64,000 bases of DNA from Candidatus Nitrospira kreftii (GTDB lineage: Bacteria > Nitrospirota > Nitrospiria > Nitrospirales > Nitrospiraceae). The DNA is taken from contig CP047423.1 of the NCBI GenBank assembly GCA_014058405.1, positions 1,550,001-1,614,000 of the forward strand, given 5' to 3'. Position 1 is the stretch's first letter; every line of letters starts with the position of its first letter. Positions 45,988 through 54,887 of the stretch are shown in pieces. A model generated the notes under the pieces. That model saw only the letters and a program-made list of their open reading frames with translations, was not told the DNA's origin and ran no database searches. The position numbers and the translations under genes are program-made.

Positions 45988-47724
45988 ATGGTATGGAAAC
46001 AAGGCATGTTTACGATGAGCATCAGTCTCCTGCGAACATGTGTGCTAGTAGTCTGCGGCATGTTGCTGGCCGCGCCCGTGCAGGCGGATTTTCCCTCCGT
46101 TCCAAAGGAGACGTACGAGGCGCTAAAGATCGATCGCTCGGCCTCACCCAAGGAACTTTATGAAGCCTTGCTCACGCGGTATCTCGATCCGGAGCAGGGT
46201 GTGGGGAAAGGGAAATATGGTCAATACTGGCAGCCGGTGTCGTTTAGTAAGTATTTTGATCCTCATACGTTCTACAAGCCACCGCAAGCCGTGAAGGAAG
46301 TCGCCAGCCGGCAGGAGTGCGTGAAGTGCCACACCGATGAATCTCCAGGGTGGGTGGTGGCATGGAAGAAAAGCACCCATGCCAATCTTGATAAGATTCG
46401 CAAGCTGAGCCCGAAGGATCCAACCTTTTACAAGAAGGCGAAGCTGGAAGCGGTTGAAGACAATCTTCGATCGATTGGGAAATTGGGTAAGGGCGAGAAG
46501 CTGAAAGAAGTGGGCTGCATCGACTGCCACTTCGACATCAATACCAAGCAAAAGGCGGATCACCGTAAAGATATTAAACTCGCCACGGCGGATACCTGCG
46601 GCACCTGCCACCTGCAGGAGTTTGCAGAGCGAGAATCCGAGCGTGATACCATTACCTGGCCAAAAGATCAGTGGCCCAAGGGCCGACCGTCCCACGCGTT
46701 GGACTACAAGGCCAACGTGGAAGTGGAAGTGTATGCGGGGATGTCGCAGCGAGAAATCGCCGATGGGTGCACGGGCTGCCACGTCAACCAGAACAAGTGT
46801 GATACCTGTCATGCGAGGCATGATTTTTCAGTGGCCGAATCACGCAAACCAGAAGTCTGCGCGCAGTGCCATAGCGGTGCCGACCATAATAACTGGGAGG
46901 CCTATAATCTCTCGAAGCACGGCTTGAAGTACCAGCGAGATAAAGAACATTGGAACTTCAACGTGCCAATCAAAGAGGCGATGAAAAATGGGGCCGAAAC
47001 GGCCCCCACGTGTCAATACTGCCACATGGAGTATCAAGGGAAAATCACCCATAACGTCGTACGCAAAGTTCGTTGGGCCAACTATCCCTTTGTGCCGGGG
47101 ATCCGTGAAAACATCAAGACCGAGTGGGCAGACAAGCGCAATGACGCCTGGGTGAAGACATGTACGAATTGCCACTCTGAAACCTATGCTCGGGCGTGGA
47201 TGGAGTTCATGGACAATGGAACGTTTTCAGGCCTCGACAAGTATGATGAAGCGCATCATGTGGTCGAAGAGCAATACAAGTCAGGCCTTTTGACCGGGCA
47301 GAAAACAAATCGTCCGACACCCCCGGCGCCGGTTCAGGAAGGATTTGAGCAATTCTTCCAGATTTATTGGTCGAAGGGGAACAACCCTGCCGCCAATGAG
47401 TTGAAGCTCTTTGAAATGGCCGAAGACCACCTGGTTCAGCTGCACGTGAGCTTGGCCCACCAGTACTGGGGCTATACGTACACAGTCGGTTGGGCGGCCA
47501 TGAATCGCGCCTATGTCGAAATCATGGATGACGACACGCGTCTGAAGGAGAAGCTTGAACTACAGGCGCGAGTGGCGAAGCTTGAAGGTCAGATGAAGCA
47601 TAGTCTGCTTGATTTAGACAGTGACACTGGCAAGATCTCACTTGGTTCGATCGGTGGTGGAATGATGCTGGCCGGGACGCTCGCGATGGCTGGGTGGCGG
47701 AGGAGCGGAAGGAAGGATCGTTGA
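45988..47724 (+). CDS. haoA: Octahaem hydroxylamine dehydrogenase (HAO)
   Basis: This periplasmic enzyme oxidises hydroxylamine in ammonia oxidisers and passes the electrons on. The 578-residue product has a signal peptide ([17 protein letters not shown]), eight CxxCH haem sites between residues 111 and 392, and long stretches close to the Nitrosomonas enzyme, such as [20 protein letters not shown] and [15 protein letters not shown]. The Tyr of the P460 cross-link region is kept (WGYTYTVGW). A C-terminal hydrophobic helix ([15 protein letters not shown]) with basic tail could anchor it. AAAGGTGG precedes the ATG. A strong terminator follows, so no haoB or cyc gene is cotranscribed downstream. 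Confidence 0.96.
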
Positions 47725-48154: not shown

Positions 48155-48969
48155 GGGTCTGTTAACACTACTGACCATTTTTATGCGATACTGCGCCCAT
48201 GGAACTCACCGAGGCTCAGTATCGTCACATCGAGCGCTGCTTGCCCACCCAACGCGGCAACGTCACGCTCGACAATCTGCACGTCCTCAATGCGATCTTG
48301 TACGTCGCCGAGCAAGGCTGCAAATGGCGCGGCCTCCCCAAGCGGTTTGGGAACTGGCACACGATCTATACGCGCATGAACCGGTGGGCGAAGAGTGGGG
48401 TGCTAGATCGCGTCTTCGCCCAGTTGCAACAGGCTCAGATCATCCGCGTGAAGCTCGAAGCCGTCGCGTTGGACAGTACCATCGTCAAGGTCCATCCGGA
48501 TGGCACGGGGGCGTTAAAAAAAACGGCCCGCAAGCCCTTGGCCGATCCCGCGGCGGGTGGACCACCAAGATTCATCTGGTTGCCGCGGATGCTCGAACGG
48601 CCCTGACGTTTGCCCTGTCGCCGGGCCAAGCTCACGATGCTCCAGAAGGGCGCAAGCTGCTGCATCGCTTCGGGAAAAGGCCATGTCCTATCCCCTTATT
48701 GATGGATCGGGCGTATGAAGGCGATGAGACGCGACACCTGGCCGTGGAACTGGGGTATATCCCAGTGGTGCCTCCCAAGCAGAATCGCTGCACGCCATGG
48801 GAATACGATCGTGTCCTCTATAGACGACGCAATGAGGTCGAACGGTTGTTCCGCCGGCTCAAAGGATTTCGCCGTCTCTTCTCGCGATTTGACAAGCTCG
48901 ATGTCATGTTCAGCGCATTCATCAACTTTGCGTTAATCGTTGATGGCTTACGGTAGTGCTAACAGGCCC
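48155..48969 (+). mobile_element. IS5-family (IS427-type) insertion sequence
   Basis: The element is 815 bp. The terminal inverted repeats read GGGTCTGTTAACACTACTGA on the left and GGGCCTGTTAGCACTACCGT on the right (17 of 20 the same). A TA duplication (48153-48154 and 48970-48971) lies in a CTAG target, typical of the IS427 group. It carries a two-frame transposase and looks intact. Confidence 0.9.
48199..48956 (+). CDS. IS5-family transposase made by -1 frameshift
   Basis: The first frame (48199-48606, 135 residues) holds the N-terminal helix-turn-helix region and the first catalytic Asp (VALDSTIVKVH). The second frame, ending at 48956, holds the second Asp (LLMDRAYEGDE) and the Glu region (RRRNEVERLFRRLKGFRR). 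The overlap contains a run of eight A (48516-48523), where a -1 slip joins the frames in KKTARK/KKNGPQ. This is the usual arrangement in the IS427 group. The DDE triad is complete after frameshift. Confidence 0.9.
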
Positions 48970-49245: not shown

Positions 49246-50040
49246 TTGGCCTTTCCCCTCAGTCGTCAAATTACGAGGTTTTCACCGAACAGAGTAGAGT
49301 GCGTGGAGCAATCACCAGACATTCGACAACAAGTGCGTGTGTTGTTAGTTGATCATTCGGATCTTATCCTTCAAGGGCTGAAGACGACCCTCTCTCAGAT
49401 TCGACACATCGTTGTTGTCGGCACTGCAAACTCGCAAGGTGAAGCAGTTGCTTTACTAAAGACCTGTCGGCCCGATGTCGTTGTTTTGGATATCCAAGTA
49501 GGACACTCGAGCGGTATTGAGCTCTGTCGGACTATTCGCAAGTCCTACCCGCAAATCGCCGTCCTTTTCTTTACCGCGAACGACGACAAGCTCCTTCTCA
49601 GGGCTGCCATTCTTGCCGGCGCGCAGGGCTACCTGCTGAAGAGAGCGTCGAGTCAGGCCGTTGCAAAAGCGATCGAGATCGTTTCAGCCGGGAGGGCCGT
49701 CGTGGACCAACAATTGACGCAGGAGCTTCTTGCGTGGGTTCGGGATGGCAAGCGGACTGCACTATGCGAACGAGTGGAGGATTGCTCAAGCGCCGATCGT
49801 CGAATCTTATCGCTCATTGCAGCCGGGCAAAGCACCAAGGAGATTGCACGGGAACTAAAGGTCACGCCCAGCGTCCTGGCGGCTCGACTGCGGAGGCTGT
49901 ACAAACGGTTGAACATCTCAAATAGATCGCAAGCGGCGCGGCACTTTGTGCAATGGGAAAAAGGATTGTCTGGGCGTACGACCCATTCTCATTCAACGGC
50001 TATCTCAGCACCGTCGGCCCCGAGCCAATTACCATCCTGA
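49246..50040 (+). CDS. NarL/LuxR-type response regulator
   Basis: The product has 264 residues from a TTG start at 49246; a GTG at 49303 would shorten it by 19. It has a receiver (VRVLLVDHSDLILQGL, phospho-Asp in VVLDIQVG, Lys in GYLLKRAS) and a LuxR-type helix-turn-helix (DRRILSLIAAGQSTKEIARE, then RLRRLYKRLNISNRSQAAR). No kinase gene is next to it. Operator pairs lie 165 bases upstream (site B) and 113 bases downstream (site C), so it may bind them and control itself. This link is inference from position. Confidence 0.88.
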   Translation: MAFPLSRQITRFSPNRVECVEQSPDIRQQVRVLLVDHSDLILQGLKTTLSQIRHIVVVGTANSQGEAVALLKTCRPDVVVLDIQVGHSSGIELCRTIRKSYPQIAVLFFTANDDKLLLRAAILAGAQGYLLKRASSQAVAKAIEIVSAGRAVVDQQLTQELLAWVRDGKRTALCERVEDCSSADRRILSLIAAGQSTKEIARELKVTPSVLAARLRRLYKRLNISNRSQAARHFVQWEKGLSGRTTHSHSTAISAPSAPSQLPS

Positions 50041-50578
50041 CTGATTGTATTTCTCAGCGATCGCCGTCCGTGAGTGCCTAGTAACCACTGATGTGCTGAT
50101 TGCCCCCATGGTTCATGTGTTTCCTCAGCATAAGCCTCCAGATTCGATTGGTGAATCGAATTAGATACAGAATCTATTTGGATACATTGATGCCTGAATG
50201 AGGATTCTATTGACCACGTCCCATTGCCTGAGAGTCTAATCCGTTGGATCTCCTGGAGTATGAACACCAGGTCGAGAGGGCATATTCTACTTATTTGCCG
50301 ACTAGTGGAGTGCTGCTTTGAGTAGGGATCCTTACGATATATCGTCGGTCCAGTTTGCAGGAATGAAAATTGCTGTGGTCTTGGACAACCGTGAGCTTGG
50401 ATCCTGCTTTGTGTGATGGTGGATGGGGTGTGGTATGAACACGCGCGGCCACTGCAGGGGGATAGATGAACCAGATGAAGTGGCTTGCGTGAGGGAGCAC
50501 GATCAAGAGCAACATTCAAGGAAAGGTTTCGTTCCAAACCTCTGAACGGATCGTTGGTCATAACTAGGGAGATGAACT
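50041..50578. other. Intergenic region upstream of the multicopper oxidase
   Basis: About 540 bases. It holds the operator pair of site C (50153-50185) and otherwise no gene that I can support. A minus-strand open frame across it is rich in His, Ser and Arg and looks like a shadow. Confidence 0.6.
50153..50185. promoter_or_regulatory. Tandem 17-bp-period operator, site C
   Basis: GAATCGAATTAGATAC (50153-50168), one base, then GAATCTATTTGGATAC (50170-50185), followed by AT. It lies 394 bases upstream of the multicopper oxidase start. The additional GATTCGATTGG just before it may be part of the site. Confidence 0.75.
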
Positions 50579-52525
50579 ATGGATCAAGTTTTCCCAGGCT
50601 ATTCTGCGAAGGTCGTGAACGTTACTAGTTGGAAAGCGTGCCTCGTCGGTATCTTGGTGCTCATGCTGTGTGTGTCCGGTAATGAATCGGCACAGGCCAC
50701 CGCTGGAAACGGGCTTTCTGATCCGTATCAAGTTCCAGTGATCGTAGACACAACTGGAACAGTCGGTCCGACCACCGCCGAGGTAGACCTTGAGGCAGTC
50801 GAGGCGCCGGTCGACATCGGCAATGGGGTCATGGCGAAGGCGGTGACGTTTAACGGGACCATCCCGGGTCCTGAGTTTCGGCTCAAGGTGGGAGACACGG
50901 TCATTGTCCATTTTAGAAATAATCTCAAGACGCAGGAGACGGGTATACACTGGCATGGCATCGAGCTGAACAATGGAGCGGACGGCAGTCCAGTGTCACA
51001 GAAGCAAGTGAAGCCAGGGAAAACATTCAATTATAAGTTCACCGTCACGCGGCCGGGGATCTTCTGGTACCATCCGCATCACCACTCGTCGACTAATCAA
51101 GTATTCAAAGGGCTCTACGGTCCATTGACTGTGACCGATCCGCATCAGCTTGCCGGGGTCCTTCCTTCGGCGGCGCAAACCAAGACGCTGGTGCTCAGCG
51201 ATATCACGGTCTGCAAAGCGCCGGGGAGTAACGATTTGGCGACATTTGCTGCTTCGCTGCCGCACGTCGGCCCCAGTGGCGTGATGTCGGGCCCGAATAA
51301 CGGTCCTTCCCCCTATGACCTCTGCGAAGGGTCTCCGCTTGATAACGAGGGGAATTTTACTGGGGATGTACTCCAGGCAGGAGACGTTCCGAACATTGTG
51401 AAGTTGGGACCTGGGCCGGTCGGTGAAGGACAGACCGTCCTCACGAATGGCGTCAATGTCGGGGCAAGGGCTGGAAGTCCGACGAATCCACTTGATCTTG
51501 CAGCCGGTGCGCGGACGCTTGACGTCCAGCCAGGTCAGGGACTGCGGTTGCAGGTCATTAATGCCGCGGCGACCCGCTATGTTCGCCTCCATTTGACTGA
51601 CAACTCGGGGCAAACCATCAACCTTGTTCGAATCGGTGGACAAGGTGGATTGCTCAACCAGGCTCGTGTTGAGGGGGCTGTGGGGGGTGTTGCTCCTAAT
51701 GGGTTTAAAGTCAACCATAACCCCGGCGAGATCCTGATTCCGCCTGGAGGTCGTGCCGATGTGGTAGCGGCGATTCCAGGCAGTGCGACGGGCGTTCTCA
51801 CCCTCTGGACGGAGGACTTCCAGCGAACCGGAGCAGGATTCGCGTGGGTACCCTCTGTTCCCGCGGCGCATTTGAAAGTCGCAGGAGCTCAGGTGAACCC
51901 TCCCTACGAGATTTCGGAAGGCACAGCACTGCGTTCGGAGCCGGTCGAGGAACTAGTTGCTGGAACGGGGGAATTCCTCAATCCTCCGGATGGCGTAGCT
52001 GGGATTGATCCCACCAGTCATCCGGACATCACGTTCACGAATACAGGAGGCGGGCCAGGAATCAACGACATACGGGCAGATCACGATCACAGTATTCGTC
52101 CGGATTCGGCTCGTTTTGCTCAGATCGGAGATGTGCTGCAAATCAAGGTGATCAATAAGACGGGGGCACACCATCCGTTTCATTTGCATGGGTTTTCGTT
52201 CCAGCCGGTGAGCCTGACCGATACTCTTCCTGAGGACCCGGGAAATGGGCCGAATGCCAGTCCGGGTATTGGACCGTCATACGAGTTCCAGTATCCGGAG
52301 TTTGTCGACGAAGTTGATATTCCTGGGGGATACACCCTGACGTTCCTGGTCCGCTTGGACGATCGTCCGGATTTTTATAATGATAAAGGCAAAGTGCTGA
52401 AGGTGAAGAAGAAGAAGACGGGTGTGGAGCCCGATGGGGGAGGCCTGGGTCGGTGGCTCTTCCATTGCCACATCCTCTTTCACGCCAACTTGGGCATGAT
52501 TTCGGAACTTGAGGTAGTCGAATAG
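50579..52525 (+). CDS. Secreted multicopper oxidase
   Basis: The 648-residue enzyme has a signal peptide and three cupredoxin domains. All four copper motifs are intact: His124-Trp-His126-Gly, WYHPHHHSS (163-171), HHPFHLHG (531-538) and HCHILFHANLGM (629-640), with Met as axial type-1 ligand. It oxidises an electron donor and reduces O2, with possible substrates being copper(I), iron, manganese or organic compounds. The class cannot be settled by eye. AGGGAG precedes the ATG. It is followed by a hairpin and then an amicyanin-like/beta-propeller gene. Operator site C lies upstream. Confidence 0.92.
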   Translation: MDQVFPGYSAKVVNVTSWKACLVGILVLMLCVSGNESAQATAGNGLSDPYQVPVIVDTTGTVGPTTAEVDLEAVEAPVDIGNGVMAKAVTFNGTIPGPEFRLKVGDTVIVHFRNNLKTQETGIHWHGIELNNGADGSPVSQKQVKPGKTFNYKFTVTRPGIFWYHPHHHSSTNQVFKGLYGPLTVTDPHQLAGVLPSAAQTKTLVLSDITVCKAPGSNDLATFAASLPHVGPSGVMSGPNNGPSPYDLCEGSPLDNEGNFTGDVLQAGDVPNIVKLGPGPVGEGQTVLTNGVNVGARAGSPTNPLDLAAGARTLDVQPGQGLRLQVINAAATRYVRLHLTDNSGQTINLVRIGGQGGLLNQARVEGAVGGVAPNGFKVNHNPGEILIPPGGRADVVAAIPGSATGVLTLWTEDFQRTGAGFAWVPSVPAAHLKVAGAQVNPPYEISEGTALRSEPVEELVAGTGEFLNPPDGVAGIDPTSHPDITFTNTGGGPGINDIRADHDHSIRPDSARFAQIGDVLQIKVINKTGAHHPFHLHGFSFQPVSLTDTLPEDPGNGPNASPGIGPSYEFQYPEFVDEVDIPGGYTLTFLVRLDDRPDFYNDKGKVLKVKKKKTGVEPDGGGLGRWLFHCHILFHANLGMISELEVVE

Positions 52526-52544
52526 CAGACGAATGAAGACAGCA

Positions 52545-52575
52545 AGCGCCCCCCGCCGGAAGGGCGGGGGGCGCT
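52545..52575 (+). terminator. GC-rich hairpin after the multicopper oxidase
   Basis: A perfect 13-bp stem (AGCGCCCCCCGCC with its complement, loop GGAAG) starts 19 bases after the stop. No T tract follows, so it may be a processing or stability element that lets some transcripts reach the next gene. Confidence 0.55.
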
Positions 52576-52635
52576 CCATAAGAAATGTGAGAACCGTTGT
52601 ATGTTCACGATGAAAAAAACAAAAAGGAAAGCACT

Positions 52636-54807
52636 ATGACAAAACGACGCCTCTTAGTGGCTTTGCTCAGTATATTGGTGGGTTGGGGCACGGTTGGCAT
52701 GGCCCAGGCCGACCCTACCGTATCATTCTATGCCACAGACAACCCAGGAACCTGGTTTGAATGTGCGAATACAGGCACCCCGCCTTCTCCAGGCGCCCCG
52801 ATTTCGGCTTCTGGACTCGGGTGTGTGCCTGAGGCGGAAGGTCTTGGCACGGTAGGACTGAAATCCCTCGCAATCATTCAACAGGGAGAATCGGTTGGGT
52901 TTCCGTCGCTCGGTGGAAAGACTCGTACGGTCCATACGGCTATCCCCTTGATCTACCCCACCGGAGCCCATAGTACCCCTGCCATATCGACATTCCATAG
53001 AGACGTGGATCTTCACGCACCGATGCCGATAGAGGATCAGACCATTACCCTGAACACTCCAGGGCTGTATGTCTTCATCTGCGACATCCATGTCTATATG
53101 TTCGCTGGTGTCATTGTCGTGCCCGAGGGCCATTCATTAGCGAACGACCCCCCAAACCTCTTTCCATTGGACCTTGGGCAAACGCTCGATCTTCCTCTCG
53201 TAAGGGCCGGTGGATCTTCAATTGTAAACATGCCAACCGCGTCGGACTTAGCCTTAAGGCTCGTCCGCACGTTTTTCATCATCACCAACCCCAATAACTG
53301 GCAATCCTACCCAGCCAGTGAAACAGCTACATGGAATCCAATATATCCAAAAGTTCCAGTCAGGGCGTATCCCTTCGAGAGCGCCACAGGTGTCGAAATT
53401 AACCTGGACACACTTATGGATTTGTACTTTGAGGAGCCTGTGACTCTCGCAGCTCCTGTTCCGCCGACGACCCCAGGAGTGGGACAGGTCTGGGTGAACA
53501 CCCAGTTCGAAAAGATGTTGCAAAAGAATAAGCCGGGCACCGCGACAGCCGTGAACGCGGATTCGTGGAAAGTAGAAAGAAAAGTTGGACTCCCACAGAT
53601 CAATATGAATAACCCGCACAATATGTGGACGGATAAAAATCAGGAGGTGATCTATCAGACCCAATGGTTCGACGAGATTTTGACAGTGTTTGATAGAAAG
53701 ACCGGCGCTTTCAAGTGGAATCGTGACGCGGGTCCCGCCCCGTCACATGTCATGACCAGAGCCAACAACGACGAAGTGCATGTGGCGCAGAACGGTGGCG
53801 ATAACGTCATGGAGTATCAATCTCTGGCGGACGGAAATGGCTTCATTAGGGCTATCCCGATGGATGAAACCCCAAACCATACAAACACAAATCCTCACGG
53901 TCATTGGATGAGCGCTGATGGAATGAAAATGGTGACACCCAACGAAAGAGTAGCCACGTCGACGGTGTATAACTTCTCAGGCTCAGGAGCTGGGTCGATC
54001 GAGGAAACAATTTCTGTGGGGCATGCACCACTTGCCACGGGAATGATGCCCGATGGAAGCAAGTACTATGTTGCCGACTTTTTGGACAGCACCTTAAGCG
54101 TGATTAACATGAACGACGCCACCCCGCGTCGTTCAACACCCATCCACTTGCTCGCGAATTATGAGAATCCATTCAAATTAAAGTGCGGGTTCCTGGGTAC
54201 ACCGCCCCCCTGCGCGCAGGTCACTGGTTCGGTGGGAGGCTTGCCGATCCAAACTCCCGTGAGTCCGGATGGTAGGTTTGTGGTCACGGCGAACACCTTG
54301 ACCGCCACCATTACGATTGTTGATACCGCAACAGACCAGGTGGTAGCGATGTTACCTTGTGACCCAGGCTGCCACGGGGTTCAATTTGGCGCGAAAAAAG
54401 GCGGCGGATATTATGCCTATGTCGCCAACAAATTTTCGAACCGGATGCAAGTTGTAGATATGGATGGAACCGCAACCGGACCTGGAGCATTCGCCCTTAA
54501 CTCAGATGGAACACCAGGCCCATGCGTTGCCGGCAAACCCTGCATCGCCGGAACCGTGCTTCTGACGGAGGCGAATAAGTCAGCTGGTTACCAAACGGAT
54601 GGAACCGTTAGGGGGCTTGCTGGAATGGGTGGTCAAGGCGTGTTGGCCGTTCCGAACGTCTACAACGGCTGGGTGCAGCAATGGGTTGAGAACTGCACGA
54701 ACAAGGACTGTAGAGCCTGGAAGCGCCAACTGACTGCCGAGCAGAAAAATCCGATCGAGATGCCCGCTGGCCAGAATCTGAATAACGGGAAGCCTAAGAA
54801 GAAGTAG
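52636..54807 (+). CDS. Secreted cupredoxin/beta-propeller protein
   Basis: The 723-residue protein has AAAGGAAAG before the ATG and a signal peptide ending in MAQA-DP. The N-terminal domain is a cupredoxin with an amicyanin-like type-1 site: Cys149-x2-His152-x2-Met155 (FICDIHVYMFAGVIVV), with upstream His in HTAIPLIYP as possible fourth ligand. A beta-propeller of the YVTN type follows (YVADFLDSTLSVINM, GRFVVTANTLTATITIVD, YYAYVANKFSNRMQVVDM), and the tail has cysteines and ends in Lys. It may pass electrons to or from the oxidase encoded upstream, or bind copper for it. The fusion is unusual. Confidence 0.75.
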   Translation: MTKRRLLVALLSILVGWGTVGMAQADPTVSFYATDNPGTWFECANTGTPPSPGAPISASGLGCVPEAEGLGTVGLKSLAIIQQGESVGFPSLGGKTRTVHTAIPLIYPTGAHSTPAISTFHRDVDLHAPMPIEDQTITLNTPGLYVFICDIHVYMFAGVIVVPEGHSLANDPPNLFPLDLGQTLDLPLVRAGGSSIVNMPTASDLALRLVRTFFIITNPNNWQSYPASETATWNPIYPKVPVRAYPFESATGVEINLDTLMDLYFEEPVTLAAPVPPTTPGVGQVWVNTQFEKMLQKNKPGTATAVNADSWKVERKVGLPQINMNNPHNMWTDKNQEVIYQTQWFDEILTVFDRKTGAFKWNRDAGPAPSHVMTRANNDEVHVAQNGGDNVMEYQSLADGNGFIRAIPMDETPNHTNTNPHGHWMSADGMKMVTPNERVATSTVYNFSGSGAGSIEETISVGHAPLATGMMPDGSKYYVADFLDSTLSVINMNDATPRRSTPIHLLANYENPFKLKCGFLGTPPPCAQVTGSVGGLPIQTPVSPDGRFVVTANTLTATITIVDTATDQVVAMLPCDPGCHGVQFGAKKGGGYYAYVANKFSNRMQVVDMDGTATGPGAFALNSDGTPGPCVAGKPCIAGTVLLTEANKSAGYQTDGTVRGLAGMGGQGVLAVPNVYNGWVQQWVENCTNKDCRAWKRQLTAEQKNPIEMPAGQNLNNGKPKKK

Positions 54808-54838: not shown

Positions 54839-54887
54839 GAGGACCCGGTGCGATGGCATTTGCCATCGCACCGGGTCCTCTGGTTTT
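54839..54887 (+). terminator. Rho-independent terminator
   Basis: A perfect 20-bp stem (GAGGACCCGGTGCGATGGCA with its complement, 2-base loop) is followed by TGGTTTTG. It starts 32 bases after the stop of the cupredoxin/propeller gene. Confidence 0.9.

Follow-up and report, generated by a model that had tools for sequence, protein, structure and literature searches.

The stretch of DNA analysed here, referred to as the window, comprises 64,000 nucleotides of the Candidatus Nitrospira kreftii contig CP047423.1 (positions 1,550,001 to 1,614,000) and carries on its forward strand two consecutive genes, encoding a multicopper oxidase (MCO) and a protein that joins a cupredoxin domain to a beta-propeller. 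The cupredoxin-propellers make up a wider copper-protein family of nitrifiers, apparently uncharacterised, that has entered two different MCO partnerships. Gene 1 (50579–52525) encodes a three-domain MCO of 648 amino acids. Gene 2 (52636–54807) encodes 723 amino acids from an ATG at 52636, and its residues are numbered accordingly; an alternative TTG start at 52597 would yield a product of 736 amino acids. Both products possess an apparent N-terminal signal peptide, as judged by reading the sequences. The genome is a single contig of 4.13 Mb with an AmoA-type gene and can therefore be assigned to a comammox-type Nitrospira, in keeping with the nitrifier host proposed in a first-pass annotation of the window. 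The coordinates, residue numbers (Cys149, His152 and Met155) and domain calls given there for both genes were correct.

The two hairpins reported in that annotation were also recovered, both on the forward strand. The first, a GC-rich hairpin with a 13-bp stem between the genes (52545–52575; fold z = −4.9 relative to shuffled sequences), lacks a T-run and does not qualify as a classical terminator. Strong intergenic stems of unrelated sequence were present in seven of 14 other Nitrospira pairs. A role in mRNA processing or stability is possible, and the recurrent hairpins may set the ratio of MCO to cupredoxin-propeller product. The second (54840–54879; z = −8.1 relative to shuffled sequences) combines a strong stem-loop with a T-rich stretch behind it and is the probable intrinsic terminator of the operon.

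Gene 1 matched the Pfam families Cu-oxidase_3 (E = 6e-33) and Cu-oxidase_2 (E = 2e-17). All four motifs of an MCO (HxH, HxH, HxxHxH and HCHxxxHxxxxM) are present, and the type 1, type 2 and type 3 copper motifs are complete: H124-W-H126, H165-P-H167, H532-PF-H535-L-H537 and H629-C630-H631...H635...M640. These ligands were unchanged in an alignment of 16 Nitrospira homologues. The relatives of the Nitrospira MCO are of the laccase/CueO type.

The product of gene 2 consists of an N-terminal cupredoxin domain (approximately residues 28–165; 52717–53130, forward strand) and a seven-bladed YVTN/YncE-like propeller (approximately residues 280–694; 53473–54717, forward strand). An AlphaFold2 model with a predicted local distance difference test score (pLDDT) of 77 and a predicted template modelling score (pTM) of 0.85 showed a beta-sandwich at the N-terminus, connected by a linker to a seven-bladed propeller, bearing out the YVTN propeller called earlier. 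The best solved structural matches were YVTN/lactonase propellers, with 1l0q aligned over 295 residues (Z 36.0, root-mean-square deviation (rmsd) 2.2). The cupredoxin domain gave weak matches to pseudoazurin, Cu-nitrite reductase and amicyanin, and its copper loop reads Cys149-x2-His152-x2-Met155. When 91 homologues from Nitrospira, ammonia-oxidising bacteria (AOB), ammonia-oxidising archaea (AOA), Rokubacteria and others were aligned, these three type 1 ligands were present in every sequence and the fourth, His100, in 90, the remaining sequence having a gap; the type 1 copper site of the first-pass annotation is thus supported. Searches of Pfam and NCBIfam yielded only sub-threshold matches, including 26.5 bits to Pfam YNCE (PF21783; gathering cut-off 27.1), and no named family for the domain combination, as had been supposed.

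In the propeller, His328, His371, His421, His423, His580 and Gln667 were invariant in all 91 homologues. By-eye alignment of the blades places His328, His371, His423, Thr468, Thr540, His580 and Gln667 at one equivalent inner-strand position across all seven blades; for blade 3, alignment with 1l0q sets His423 opposite a valine of an ordinary YVTN repeat. Their invariance and position in the blades suggest that the His-rich propeller holds a second metal or substrate site. Since five invariant histidines point to such a site, the cupredoxin-propeller is probably more than a mere electron carrier. The joint loss of Cys575 and Cys579 in two homologues (L103 and L127) suggests that these residues form a disulfide.

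A cupredoxin joined to a His-lined propeller raises the question of whether gene 2 acts like the N2O reductases NosZ or L-NosZ, its two domains standing in the opposite order. Both domain types are shared with NosZ, which was among the structural matches (5i5j; Z 29.6, rmsd 3.0, 312 residues), and the NCBIfam L-NosZ model gave weak matches of 27–40 bits. However, many unrelated propellers equalled NosZ in structural score. The L-NosZ model (NF052460) awarded gene 2 itself 32 bits against a curated cut-off of 700, and it also matched unrelated genomes, including seven of 14 control genomes, among them that of E. coli. In comparison with the CuZ site, the propeller of gene 2 is His-rich, but profile alignment with NosZ propellers was not significant, and the copper loop contains one conserved cysteine (Cys149) rather than the two of CuA, making the site type 1. 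An N2O-reductase-like function is therefore considered very unlikely. Still less credence is given to a non-enzymatic surface or scaffold protein standing beside an ordinary laccase: an archaeal surface-layer protein is the nearest solved propeller on both sequence and structural grounds, but the type 1 ligands are conserved and the linkage to an MCO is repeated and independent, as described below.

Within Nitrospira the pair is conserved, as the first-pass annotation had anticipated. A search of 98 genomes of the order detected the MCO in 17 Nitrospira genomes, besides a single more distant match from another family; a full-length clade-A cupredoxin-propeller lay directly downstream of the MCO in 17/17 genomes with the pair. 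Neither the MCO nor the clade-A protein was found alone among the 59 Nitrospira genomes searched. A tie to ammonia oxidation within the genus was not supported, since neither the pair, present in 11/34 genomes positive for ammonia monooxygenase (AMO) and 6/25 AMO-negative genomes (p = 0.57), nor the whole family (any clear member in 22/34 and 11/25, respectively) differed significantly. Several Nitrospira share a common slot comprising a TonB receptor, a NarL-type regulator, the MCO, the cupredoxin-propeller, orf168, an HD-domain regulator, rph and rdgB.

Further copies and fragments were encountered in these searches. A second family member in the N. kreftii genome, outside the window (G000 1975876–1977324, locus L002), has an internal TAG and an open frame of 487 amino acids, and is possibly a decaying stand-alone paralogue. 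In some Nitrospira, stand-alone paralogues, full or remnant, also occur directly upstream of the MCO, at L042 (5983–7818), L043 (12895–13338) and L047 (6473–6874), which suggests duplication at the locus. A 1317-amino acid frame resembling an MCO-propeller fusion (G002/L056) was rejected as a scaffold gap, the junction containing N and the end of the MCO being missing.

Among 85,000 species genomes scanned, 255 cupredoxin-propeller relatives were recovered. The best 78 of the 255 were mostly from Nitrospira and Nitrosomonadaceae, with a few from Nitrososphaeraceae, Rokubacteria, Methylomirabilota, Methanoperedens and Chloroflexota. In whole-genome searches, 76/101 genomes of Nitrosomonadaceae and 14/47 of Nitrososphaeraceae carried the family. 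At least 61 of the former and approximately ten of the latter encode a long form of about 910–1150 amino acids, in which an N-terminal two-domain MCO of approximately 300 residues (Pfam Cu-oxidase_3 and Cu-oxidase_2) precedes the cupredoxin-propeller. In a tree of 104 rows, the fused forms of AOB and AOA constituted a single clade (support 99), apart from both the Nitrospira MCO-adjacent clade and a stand-alone clade. The separate clades and the different types of MCO indicate two different partnerships; the sequence comparison thus implies that the cupredoxin-propeller gained an MCO partner twice, by different routes.

Variation in copy number and context was seen among these relatives. In Nitrosomonas, the genes flanking the stand-alone form encode a DUF6502 protein and a product of roughly 300 amino acids without a Pfam match (L084 4848–5744 and 8060–8950), an arrangement conserved in approximately 20 loci. 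One AOA genome (G247) encodes three MCO-fused copies (L169, L170 and L171) of about 1000–1090 amino acids with long N-terminal extensions, of which L171 has no adjacent partner gene of the kind described next.

Immediately upstream of the fused gene, 18 of the 19 loci examined encode a two-domain MCO-like protein of 320–410 amino acids. This partner keeps both domain-1 HxH motifs (H137-x-H139 and H188-x-H190; 18/18) and has lost the ligands of domain 2, the HCH motif being absent. Conversely, domain 2 is intact in the fused half (HTFHxHAH and HCHxxxHMEAGM; 19/19), and the HxH motifs of domain 1 have disappeared from it. Both halves align with solved two-domain laccases across both domains, but no single chain carries the full set of type 1, 2 and 3 ligands of such a laccase, the ligands being divided over two genes. 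This complementary loss is read as the sign of an MCO split between two genes.

Co-occurrence follows the same pattern. Among the Nitrosomonadaceae, the partner accompanied every intact fused gene (61/61 genomes) but was found in none of the genomes that have the stand-alone form only (0/9); in five other partner-bearing genomes the fused gene was truncated or interrupted, and one further genome was unclassifiable. All ten AOA genomes tested that have the fused form also have the partner (one as a fragment), and it was not found in two AOA limited to the stand-alone form, in six AOA lacking the family or in 10 Nitrospira tested. Named strains with both genes include Nitrosovibrio sp. Nv17 and Nitrosomonas sp. 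JL21. In two-domain laccases the trinuclear cluster sits where domain 1 of a subunit meets domain 2 of its neighbour. By analogy with this arrangement across subunits, the partner and the fused half could assemble into one working trinuclear cluster.

On balance, and with slightly better than even confidence, the pair is read as a periplasmic copper oxidoreductase in which the cupredoxin-propeller acts as an electron relay linking its propeller site with an O2-reducing MCO. A substrate would donate electrons to the propeller site or to the cupredoxin, if occupied by metal; the type 1 copper of the cupredoxin would hand them on to the MCO, the flow presumably running in this direction; and the MCO would reduce O2 at its trinuclear cluster. 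In Nitrospira the part of the MCO would be played by the complete three-domain enzyme encoded directly upstream. In AOB and AOA it would fall to the split two-domain MCO, with the type 1 site and domain-2 trinuclear ligands contributed by the fused half and the two domain-1 HxH motifs by the product of the adjacent upstream gene, assuming that the two form a complex. The periplasmic electron-transfer pair proposed in the first-pass annotation is consistent with this evidence and gains weight because the same cupredoxin-propeller is fused to half an MCO in AOB and AOA. The cupredoxin-propeller probably forms part of a copper enzyme of nitrifiers that uses oxygen and has yet to be characterised. 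A more far-reaching proposal, which we put forward only tentatively, is a new class of nitrifier periplasmic copper oxidase, in which a cupredoxin and a His-lined propeller with its own catalytic metal site are wired to an O2-reducing MCO, the enzyme of AOB and AOA being a heteromer with a trinuclear cluster built from two gene products.

Several observations weigh against the oxidoreductase interpretation. A majority of the rows in the tree (63/104) have no such MCO, neither adjacent nor fused, and an MCO partner is therefore not obligatory. The genomes are related by descent, so that counts of co-occurrence are not independent, and some homologues were retrieved by motifs containing His328 or His580, whose invariance is correspondingly less independent. 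The clustering of the propeller histidines was deduced from the alignment of blades, and these residues could instead serve folding or ligand binding and not metal. All of the support derives from sequence comparison and predicted structure, and the model of gene 1 (pLDDT 57) was too poor for use.

NO, hydroxylamine and Cu(I) are candidate substrates that would fit the hosts, none of them favoured by the evidence. Comammox bacteria are without nitrosocyanin and their NO-oxidising enzyme is described as unknown (PMC6478695), which makes it attractive to regard the pair as a nitrifier NO oxidase, or a hydroxylamine-handling enzyme, filling the proposed NO-oxidising step; the host range, mostly nitrifiers, is in agreement. 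The family is, however, missing from 12/34 AMO-positive Nitrospira and 33/47 Nitrososphaeraceae and present in 11/25 AMO-negative Nitrospira. A distribution this patchy cannot be that of a general NO-oxidising enzyme, and the proposal is regarded as improbable.

Alternatively, the pair may serve copper homeostasis, with the MCO oxidising Cu(I) in the manner of CueO or PcoA and the cupredoxin-propeller acting as a periplasmic copper store or chaperone. Gene 1 did weakly match the models for CopA/PcoA (TIGR01480; 128 bits) and CueO (NF008205; 88 bits), and several Nitrospira loci have a TonB-dependent receptor in the vicinity of the pair. Both scores are far under the curated cut-offs of 479 and 525 bits, respectively, however, placing gene 1 outside either family, and of the neighbouring genes scanned in the window none was recognised as a copper-resistance gene. 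To our knowledge, neither a half-MCO fusion nor a conserved seven-bladed propeller with a set of invariant histidines occurs in known copper-resistance systems, which also counts against this explanation. Homeostasis is accordingly thought unlikely, and copper detoxification, like an N2O-reductase-like role, is less well supported than the oxidoreductase interpretation.

Upstream of the MCO lies a gene for a NarL/LuxR-type response regulator (49246–50040, forward strand). The order of regulator and MCO is kept in the Nitrospira loci L044/L062, L045/L130, L068 and L070 (57–66% identity). In most of the AOB loci read, the split-MCO operon likewise has a NarL-type regulator in front of it, with only 20–28% identity to that of Nitrospira. 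Between regulator and MCO is a perfect 8-bp inverted repeat (50142–50161) that occurs once in the window. The first-pass annotation had placed an operator near 50153; the repeat is real, yet none was present in four relatives sharing the gene order, and the operator is not conserved. In the window, the TonB receptor is separated from the response regulator by an HAO-type octahaem cytochrome gene (45988–47724) and then an IS4/IS5-type transposase (48183–48956), both absent at that place in relatives of the same gene order. The AmoA gene is 1.5 Mb from this HAO-type gene.

The copper redox chemistry of nitrifiers is a known gap, and the roles of MCOs in AOA are still conjectural (PMC11561398). 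A family common to most AOB, some AOA and many Nitrospira, and unnamed in the libraries searched, yields a specific testable prediction, namely one MCO divided over two genes. Open-access literature on YVTN or beta-propellers with MCOs or cupredoxins in Nitrosomonas, Nitrospira and ammonia oxidisers gave no description of the family, which subscription journals may hold, and no report of such a split MCO was found in open-access sources.

Every domain described here is known; their arrangement and the apparent split MCO of AOB and AOA are new. Gene 1 has the MCO domains and complete type 1, 2 and 3 motifs in common with the three-domain laccase-like enzymes CueO and PcoA/CopA, but differs in scoring far under the CopA and CueO cut-offs and in its constant cupredoxin-propeller partner in the Nitrospira genomes searched. 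Gene 2 shares with amicyanin and pseudoazurin a type 1 His/Cys/His/Met site, the Cys-x2-His-x2-Met loop being amicyanin-like, whereas its cupredoxin is fused to a propeller and the sequence similarity is marginal. With YVTN/YncE propellers, the archaeal surface-layer protein 1l0q and the hydrazine synthase beta subunit it shares the repeat pattern and seven-bladed fold, but is distinguished by invariant histidines situated early in the inner strand of four of its seven blades. NosZ and L-NosZ likewise join a cupredoxin to a seven-bladed propeller with conserved histidines; gene 2 departs from them in its reversed domain order, a type 1 site in place of CuA and the lack of a significant sequence relation. 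Finally, both halves of the AOB/AOA enzyme align over both domains with two-domain (small) laccases of the Streptomyces SLAC type (e.g. 9ix9, 3tas and 4m3h), but in the AOB/AOA enzyme the ligands are distributed over two gene products, one of which is fused to a cupredoxin-propeller.

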